This document shows, piece after piece, positions 2,029 through 3,377 of a stretch of 39,166 nt of DNA. The notes below the pieces were generated by a model. That model was given only the letters and a program-made list of their open reading frames with translations. It did no database searches and was not told the origin of the DNA. Numbering within the stretch: the first letter of the stretch is position 1; the number at the start of each line of letters is the position of its first letter. This stretch comes from Actinomycetes bacterium (GTDB lineage Bacteria; Actinomycetota; UBA4738; HRBIN12), in the NCBI GenBank assembly GCA_021155985.1, contig JAJNBA010000026.1, positions 1 through 39,166 of the forward strand. The letters are read 5' to 3'. A program made the position numbers and the translations under genes.

Positions 2029-2631
2029 ATGGACAAGATCGGACCCAAGCACCGCATGTGCAGACGTGTCGGCGCCCCGCTGTGTGGGCGTCCCAATTGT
2101 CCTGCCAACAAGCGACCCTATCCGCCCGGTCAACACGGCCGCGGCCGTAAACGGATCTCCGAGTATCAGACGCGACTCGTCGAGAAGCAGAAGATGCGCG
2201 CGATCTACGCGGTGGGCGAACGGCAGATGCGCAAGTACTACGAGCGGGCGCACCGATCGATGGCGGTGACGGGAGAAGAACTCCTGAAGCAGCTCGAGAC
2301 CCGGATCGACGCCGTGGTGCTCCGTCTCGGCTTCGCGCTCACGATCCATCAGGCCCGTCAGCTCGTGTCGCACGGGCACGTGCTGATCGACGGCAAGCGG
2401 ATCGACGTTCCGAGCGCTCAGGTCAAGGCGGGGCAAGAGATCAGCCTCACCGACAAGGCGCGCGACTTCATCGCGGTACGAGAAGCGATCCAGATCACCG
2501 CGGATCCTCCCGGGTACCTCTACCGAAACAAGGACGAGATCAAGGGCGCCTTCATCCGGGTCCCTGAGCGCGATGAGATCCCGCTCCCGGTGACCCTCGA
2601 AGAGCGCCTCGTCGTCGAGTTCTACTCCTAG
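2029..2631 (+). CDS. rpsD: 30S ribosomal protein S4
   Basis: This is a 200-residue S4, a primary 16S rRNA-binding protein of the small subunit. PYPPGQHG (residues 31-38), the SEYQTRLVEKQKMR helix and the S4 RNA-binding domain (roughly 90-155, LETRIDAVVLRLGFA...GHVLIDGKRIDVPS) are typical. The N-terminal zinc-site region is odd. The first cysteine of the usual CxxC pair is His8 (HRMC), and the next pair is Cys19 and Cys24 after a shortened loop, suggesting an HCCC site. ATG 2029 is the only plausible start, because an in-frame TGA lies at 2017-2019. The gene stands alone rather than in a ribosomal-protein operon, and the MerB-like gene follows 8 nt downstream, probably co-transcribed. Confidence 0.97.
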   Translation: MDKIGPKHRMCRRVGAPLCGRPNCPANKRPYPPGQHGRGRKRISEYQTRLVEKQKMRAIYAVGERQMRKYYERAHRSMAVTGEELLKQLETRIDAVVLRLGFALTIHQARQLVSHGHVLIDGKRIDVPSAQVKAGQEISLTDKARDFIAVREAIQITADPPGYLYRNKDEIKGAFIRVPERDEIPLPVTLEERLVVEFYS

Positions 2632-2639
2632 GCGATCCG

Positions 2640-3377
2640 ATGGTCGCCGGTTCCGGCGACGCCGCCTCGTTCGACCGAGCGGTGCGCGTCGCCGTCTACC
2701 GATACACGGTCGCGGAGGGCGTCCCACCGTCGGCGACGGAGATCGCCCAGGAGGTCGGCGCCACGACCGCAGATGTCGAGACCTCGCTCCGGCGGCTCGC
2801 CGACGGACACGTCCTCGTCCTCGCGTCCGGCACGACCTCGATCTGGATGGCGGCCCCGTTCTCCGCGATCCCGACCCCGTTCTCGGTCTCGGTCGGCGAG
2901 CGGCGCTATTTCGCGAACTGCATCTGGGACGCGTTGGGGATCCCGGCCTGTCTGCACGCGGATGCCGTGATCGACACGCACTGCCCCGATTGCGCTGCGC
3001 CGCTCCGCCTCGAGGTGCGCGACGGCGCCCTCGAGGAGCCGGGAGAAGGCGTGATCCACTTCGCGGTCCCCGCGGCGCGCTGGTGGGACGACATCGGCTC
3101 GACCTGAGCGAGCATGCTCCTCTTCCGGTCGGAAGAGCACGTGCGGGGGTGGGCGAGGGAACGTGGCCTCGCTCCGGGCGCGGTCTTCACCCCGCAGCAG
3201 GGATGGGCGCTCGCGGAGGCGTGGTTCTCCGATCGACTCGATCCCGCGTGGCGGCGCAGGACGACGGAGGAGGCGCAGGCCGTCTTCGACGGTATCGGGC
3301 TCACCGGTCCGTTCTGGGACCTGCTCGATCGAGCGACGTTTCCGGCGCCGGGCGGGTGGATACAGCATGACGGATGA
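2640..3377 (+). CDS. MerB-like (organomercurial lyase family) protein, probable selenoprotein with Sec at TGA 3105-3107
   Basis: Read through the TGA, this is one 245-residue protein. Residues 10-62 resemble the winged-helix N-terminal domain of MerB. NCIWDALG supplies Cys94 and Asp97, matching catalytic Cys96 and Asp99 of classical MerB. THCPDC gives Cys115, matching structural Cys117. The TGA is codon 156, in WWDDIGST-(TGA)-ASMLLFRSEEHV, and aligns with SFCCHVHFF of MerB, so it sits at catalytic Cys159 (spacing 62 versus 63 residues). The frame continues for 89 more codons with family-like sequence to the stop at 3375-3377. A hairpin with a GGTC loop begins 4 nt after the TGA. Known MerB breaks carbon-mercury bonds using both cysteines and the aspartate; the true substrate here is unproven. 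The alternative is a nonsense mutation or sequencing error giving a 155-residue product. Confidence 0.8.
3112..3144 (+). promoter_or_regulatory. Candidate bacterial SECIS element
   Basis: Immediately 3' of the in-frame TGA, a perfect 7-bp stem (CTCTTCC 3120-3126 with GGAAGAG 3131-3137) closes a GGTC tetraloop (3127-3130). An outer helix (GCATG 3112-3116 with CGTGC 3140-3144, one wobble) extends it across a small internal loop. Nineteen nucleotides separate the TGA from the first loop G. Known bacterial SECIS elements, such as that of E. coli fdhF, place a loop with GGU/GGUC about 16-37 nt after UGA, where SelB binds. The hairpin lies in coding sequence, and part of it is constrained by the LFRSEE peptide. 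Confidence 0.75.

Follow-up and report, generated by a model that had tools for sequence, protein, structure and literature searches.

The window analysed here, i.e. the entire stretch of 39,166 nucleotides of contig JAJNBA010000026.1 from a soil-type actinobacterium, contains a gene for a MerB relative with an in-frame UGA at the position of one of the two mercury-gripping cysteines. The gene is called Sec-MerB below, and A1 denotes the core alignment of 20 rows. The following features were assigned.

2029..2631, + strand: ribosomal protein S4 (rpsD), upstream neighbour, ending 8 nt before the Sec-MerB ATG
2640..3377, + strand: Sec-MerB coding sequence, 245 residues with TGA156 read as predicted Sec (ORF, Pfam, AlphaFold)
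2655..2804, + strand: N-terminal winged-helix-like domain of three helices, residues 6-55 (predicted model)
2859..3227, + strand: MerB domain PF03243, residues 74-196 (Pfam)
2919..2921, + strand: TGC, Cys94, equivalent to the MerB catalytic Cys96; invariant in A1 (20/20)
2928..2930, + strand: GAC, Asp97, equivalent to MerB Asp99 (proton relay); invariant in A1 (20/20)
2982..2984, + strand: TGC, Cys115, equivalent to the MerB structural Cys117; 19/20, usually within a CPDC motif
3105..3107, + strand: in-frame TGA, predicted Sec codon at the MerB Cys159 column (alignment to MerB C160S and MerB2)
3120..3137, + strand: putative bacterial SECIS-type hairpin, overlapping the LFRSEE codons (stem covariation, codon freezing)

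The reading frame of Sec-MerB started with the ATG at 2640 and ran for 155 codons to the TGA at 3105-3107 (codon 156), which was followed by 89 sense codons and the stop codon TGA at 3375-3377. Mechanical ORF calling split the gene into a 155-aa truncation (2640-3107) and an 87-aa ORF (3114-3377). A preceding sequence-only reading had described a MerB frame with this TGA at the Cys159 column, 89 codons beyond it, and the first catalytic cysteine, the aspartate and the structural cysteine all in place; coordinates and alignment were reproduced, and the three residues were identified as Cys94, Asp97 and Cys115. Besides rpsD, the neighbouring genes in the window encoded TetR, an acyltransferase, Lar_N, ADH and a fatty-acyl-reductase-like protein. 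Co-transcription of rpsD and Sec-MerB is possible by inference, and a survey of neighbours did not show this arrangement in relatives; likewise, no mer operon, conserved operon or recurrent neighbours were found around Sec-MerB in relatives. At the edge of the contig, a glutaredoxin-thioredoxin reductase fusion at 6-656 on the - strand is terminated by a TGA lying 5 nt from the edge, where another frame reads REDDLIG, probably as a result of an assembly frameshift.

The MerB domain PF03243 was matched with an E value of 5.6e-32 (110.8 bits versus a cut-off of 27). In phmmer searches the closest solved relatives were MerB2 (5c17; 1e-12), followed by MerB (3f2g/3fn8/1s6l); residue 156 was placed on MerB Cys159 (igstCasmllf against rqsfCshvhff of the C160S mutant 3f2g), and C94 and D97 were placed on Cys96 and Asp99. 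An AlphaFold model built from 20 aligned relatives reached a mean pLDDT of 86.8, and all 11 significant PDB matches to it were MerB or MerB2, with a Foldseek E value of 9.4e-12 against 5c17. The N-terminal helices of the model comprised residues 6-26, 32-39 and 43-55, and a domain search gave weak LexA_DNA_bind/HTH_20 matches for this region; the N-terminus of MerB is itself winged-helix-like. Sec-MerB shares with MerB and MerB2 (PF03243; PDB 3f0o, 3f2f, 1s6l, 5c17) the fold, the domain, the equivalents of Cys96, Asp99 and Cys117 and the second metal-ligand position, but differs from them in that the second ligand would be Sec (TGA), Cys160 is lacking, identity in structural alignments is only 20-25% and the gene stands alone without a mer operon. 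Scores against the two NCBIfam MerB equivalog models (59.1 of 193 and 44.7 of 200 bits) were below both cut-offs, and the canonical Cys159 criterion was unmet, TGA (Sec) being found at that column. As judged from these comparisons of predicted protein, Sec-MerB is a variant of the MerB fold family and not a canonical MerB.

To compare the Sec column across relatives, several genome collections were inspected. TGA was present in 20/20 rows of A1, where the preceding PAARWWDDI block and the following FRSE were also invariant. Among relatives from GTDB genomes, 21 out of 22 likewise had TGA there; the exception, which is archaeal, has TGC. In 397 Actinomycetota genomes nearly all strong full-length matches carried one TGA, located at the Sec column wherever this was read, and two members (L046 and L047) had TGC; Cys also occurs at this column in L019. 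The TGA form was found in 15 of 396 genomes of Acidobacteria (the phylum of G405 and L010), and the other acidobacterial matches, apart from L106 described below, belonged to a distinct CxxC-type group or were distant Cys MerB-like proteins. TGA-bearing relatives thus number dozens and derive from at least four phyla (Actinomycetota, Acidobacteriota, Verrucomicrobiota and Chloroflexota). Conservation extended for about 70 codons past the TGA across phyla, and neither TAA nor TAG was ever seen at the Sec column. A base-call error was rejected, without read mapping, on the grounds that the identical TGA is repeated in independent assemblies of four phyla. The comparison of homologues that had been proposed for this column gave TGA in nearly all and Cys in a minority.

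The phylogenetic tree set the Sec-bearing clade apart from the phylum's remaining Cys MerB-like proteins, with a support of 98/98. The Cys members L046/L047 and L019 were placed inside the Sec-bearing clade, but this placement was not firm, and whether L046/L047 arose by reversion from Sec is unsettled. Distribution was patchy; among 17 genomes sampled from the same family, its own included, only its own genome had the gene. Relatives of Sec-MerB were not found in the phages and viral contigs searched, and the plasmids searched yielded nothing beyond distant MerB, relatives of the CxxC type and a single decayed copy of the Sec type.

Several divergent members were also observed. In the close member L106 (G585:C12:54976-55623), the Sec column is occupied by TGG (Trp) and that of Cys94 by Ser (GCSAWD), and the hairpin has been lost; with Ser in place of Cys94 this is not an active triad, and L106 is probably a catalytically dead paralogue. 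L021 (3001-3626) and L048 are of the Sec type but carry an insertion behind the TGA, and their hairpin (GCAGAAGA...TCTTCTGC) is another one in a shifted position; their upstream part lies in another frame, due to either assembly or a real frameshift. L088 (4031-4681), L089 (3962-4603, annotated merB), L108 and L109, from Paraburkholderia, Sphingomonas and the acidobacterial search, are MerB-like proteins with APC[ML]WC, i.e. Cys for Asp99, and Cys at 159, and constitute a separate MerB variant. L090 (3932-4401), an annotated 89-aa 'merB' on the Rubrobacter radiotolerans plasmid NZ_CP007515.1, has TGA at the Sec column, has lost its N-terminus and is broken in its later frame; it looks like a decayed Sec-type copy.

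The hairpin at 3120-3137 (CTCTTCC-GGTC-GGAAGAG) has a perfect 7-bp stem and a GGUC loop, with 12 nt between the TGA and the stem and 19 nt between the TGA and the loop. It was present as the sequence-only reading had described it, and was found to be conserved and to behave as an RNA element. The sequence TTCCGGTCGGAA occurred once in the window versus 0.00 expected. Folding energy did not stand out for DNA so rich in GC (z = 0.06) and was rejected as evidence, and the case for the hairpin therefore rests on comparison. Covariation was analysed with 35 and then with 46 sequences. In the 46 distinct sequences 95.3% of stem cells were paired, compared with 47-63% when one arm was slid; double-sided (compensatory) changes were found at 5 of the 7 stem pairs (15 cells), and none of 500 shuffles reached the observed stem values. 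Pairing was kept despite amino acid change in L100/L101 (CTGTTCC-GGTC-GGAACAG), L107 (GCTTTCC-GGTC-GGAGAGC) and L051 (CCTTC-GGTC-GAAGG). Codons in the stem region of A1 were frozen, with Arg163 as CGG in 19/20, Ser164 as TCG in 20/20 and Phe162 as TTC in 20/20 rows, whereas the equally invariant Arg147 and Ser75 used CGG and TCG in only 4/20 and 6/20. The hairpin was absent from every non-Sec member examined (L046, L047, L019, L106, L088, L089, L108 and L109). The peptide FR[ST] was retained with other codons and without the hairpin in L088, L089, L106 (TTC CGC TCC) and L109; since some Cys and Trp relatives keep it, the LFRSEEH motif is weakened as stand-alone proof of RNA constraint, and the argument rests on codons and covariation. 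In bSECISearch, the apical loop is required to begin with G and to lie about 16-37 nt after the UGA, and both requirements were met (GGUC, 19 nt). On this comparative evidence the hairpin is an element acting at the RNA level and behaves as a bacterial SECIS should.

The genome (2.67 Mb in 139 contigs, 91% complete) was searched for selA, selB, selC and selD, as the sequence-only reading had suggested, and all components were found: selA and selB lie side by side on contig C26, C18 carries selD, and C8 carries a tRNA-Sec whose anticodon is UCA. A second recoded gene, encoding the formate dehydrogenase alpha subunit FdhA (L083, G000:C77:97599-99467), has the classical in-frame TGA (NNIDSCNRTU HAPS) and, behind it, a hairpin that includes a GGTC stretch, indicating that UGA recoding is in use in this genome. 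Among relative genomes, selB was above the cut-off in 16 of 22, with two further probable partial copies at contig ends; the genome that encodes the archaeal TGC homologue had no SelB over the cut-off. In actinobacteria selA was present in 19 of 21 Sec-type genomes versus 234 of 397 overall (hypergeometric p = 0.0014, uncorrected for kinship). The two Sec-type genomes without selA are 68% and 73% complete, and in draft Sec-type MAGs selB was undetected in three and selA in two.

It is near certain from this evidence, with Sec insertion itself inferred, that the window gene encodes a selenoprotein; the proposal that Sec replaces the second catalytic Cys was supported, at the level of sequence, by the conserved TGA, the machinery and the hairpin covariation. 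A real stop, producing a 155-aa truncated protein or marking a decaying gene, would agree with the 155 + 87 aa obtained by mechanical ORF finding and has a precedent in the truly decayed plasmid copy of R. radiotolerans, but truncation would remove a catalytic residue, and the conserved residues behind the codon, the restriction of the column to TGA among stop codons, the compensatory stem changes and the Sec machinery leave this reading with very little probability. Equally little is left for a decoding of the TGA, through suppression or a variant code, as an amino acid other than Sec (Trp or Gly). The TGG of L106 would favour Trp, but this relative also has Ser at the Cys94 column, the remaining non-Sec members have Cys and the hairpin accompanies only TGA; moreover, TGA serves as the stop codon of the neighbouring gene Lar_N in the window, and no TGA interrupts the sel genes. 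Truncation or a pseudogene and a variant code were consequently rejected, the deciding points being the conserved residues past the TGA, covariation, the Sec machinery and the use of TGA as a stop nearby.

Sec-containing MerB-like proteins are not wholly new. PMC9312934 lists an 'alkylmercury lyase MerB-like protein' among selenoproteins, an entry which PMC13188914 equates with SaoL (NF040728, motif CU), the MerB-like organometallic lyase of the SAO system (Haft & Gwadz 2023, via PMC13188914). SaoL resembles Sec-MerB in being a predicted Sec-containing MerB-like protein. The window protein, however, scored 44 bits against the SaoL cut-off of 140, and all 20 members matched the model only weakly; the motif is CU in SaoL (PMC13188914) and TU in Sec-MerB (20/20), and Sao-type transporter and thioredoxin neighbours are absent from the window. 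By score, motif and neighbours, and without a column-by-column alignment to SaoL, the Sec-MerB clade is not SaoL. An 'organic mercuric lyase MerB2' is given as a predicted selenoprotein in a table of PMC7435645, without a sequence; the name suggests a Sec-containing MerB, which may be SaoL or a member of the Sec-MerB clade. No NCBIfam model of June 2026 names the window protein over its cut-off. The Sec-MerB clade is a distinct variant, and an earlier description in the Haft 2023/2025 papers is not excluded.

The machinery and the signal are evident from sequence and Sec insertion is inferred in the mechanism proposed here. At the UGA at 3105-3107, the GGUC-loop hairpin would recruit SelB together with Sec-tRNA(Sec), so that Sec would be inserted instead of termination. 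In the folded protein Sec156 would take the place of MerB Cys159 beside Cys94 (Cys96) and Asp97 (Asp99), and the selenolate/thiolate pair would grip R-Hg+. Asp97 would pass a proton to the leaving carbon, R-H would depart, and Hg(II) would be held on Cys94-Sec156 until cellular thiols take it off; without a strong thiol partner, the metal would be released slowly. Because a selenolate is deprotonated at the pH of the cell and has a higher affinity for Hg than a thiolate, efficient capture of trace methylmercury or another soft organometal is to be expected of the enzyme. In published computations on MerB, Cys96, Asp99 and Cys159 serve as ligands and as relays of protons while Hg is removed (PMC4525700). 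No MerA over the cut-off was found in the genome (two relatives of 321 bits versus a cut-off of 454), so that release and reduction of Hg(II) remain unexplained. The selenium-mercury function suggested in the sequence-only reading is inferred from the conserved MerB triad and fold and has not been shown.

Overall, a full-length MerB-fold selenoprotein performing MerB-type protonolysis was considered the best explanation and is held with good confidence, although expression, Sec insertion and activity have not been shown. That Sec-MerB is a lyase for organomercury or a related organometal is likely to a slightly lesser degree, C-Hg cleavage being inferred from the conserved triad and fold, and methylmercury as its natural substrate is a plausible assignment that falls just short of being favoured. 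The protein might instead be a true MerB-fold selenoprotein that does not cleave organomercury, acting on another substrate class or binding or sensing Hg(II) or soft metals through Cys94-Sec156, for example as a trap or chaperone or possibly as a regulator through its winged-helix domain. The stand-alone gene, the absence of a mer operon and of MerA over the cut-off and the winged-helix-like N-terminus are in agreement with this, as is the occurrence of MerB without MerA in 895 genomes, called physiologically puzzling in the 2021 mer survey (PMC8261052). Asp97, however, is the proton relay for C-Hg cleavage, is unneeded for mere binding and is invariant in A1, and such an N-terminus is common to MerB itself; absence of cleavage was accordingly regarded as unlikely. 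A redox selenoenzyme of the peroxidase or reductase type, with MerB only as the ancestor of the fold, would be conceivable since the Cys94/Sec156 pair could form a selenenylsulfide and most selenoproteins are redox enzymes according to PMC9312934. This function appears quite improbable, as a CxxU or UxxC motif is absent, Asp97 and the MerB pocket motif are retained, and the AhpC/redoxin families found among neighbours (3 of 80 proteins) are at noise level.

Apart from Sec-MerB, MerB-AAA fusions with two in-frame TGAs were found in three actinobacterial genomes, all with selA: L071 (G331:C1:1408025-1408930), L072 (G212:C75:737-1618) and L073 (G222:C160:14744-15622). The TGAs occupy both catalytic Cys columns, that of Cys96 (GLUGME) and that of Cys159 (FNUSRMNLFRSEEH). 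The MerB domain was detected at 2e-13 for L059, which is the same place as L071. The fusions share this domain with Sec-MerB, as well as an identical hairpin after the second TGA, but UxxE replaces CxxD and a C-terminal AAA ATPase is present. Downstream of the first TGA, hairpins can likewise be drawn, although three sequences are too few to prove their existence. Confirmation would make the fusion a relative of MerB in which both ligand positions for the metal carry selenium.

The textbook enzyme of methylmercury breakdown is MerB, and few biological ligands bind mercury as strongly as selenium. The question of selenium for sulfur could be tested on one scaffold by comparison of Sec members with natural Cys members such as L046. 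Gene callers stop at UGA, and therefore the Sec-MerB class is truncated or split in databases; if the reading is true, it would be invisible to surveys that require Cys159 in the annotated protein. The 2021 mer survey filtered MerB on Cys96/Asp99/Cys159/Cys117 and listed no MerB in Acidobacteria (PMC8261052), and for mercury ecology this contrasts with the Sec form in 15 of 396 acidobacterial genomes. Tentatively, and with the balance somewhat against it, Sec-MerB may represent a widespread, overlooked class that cleaves methylmercury or other organometals in four phyla without MerA, together with a double-Sec, AAA-fused branch.
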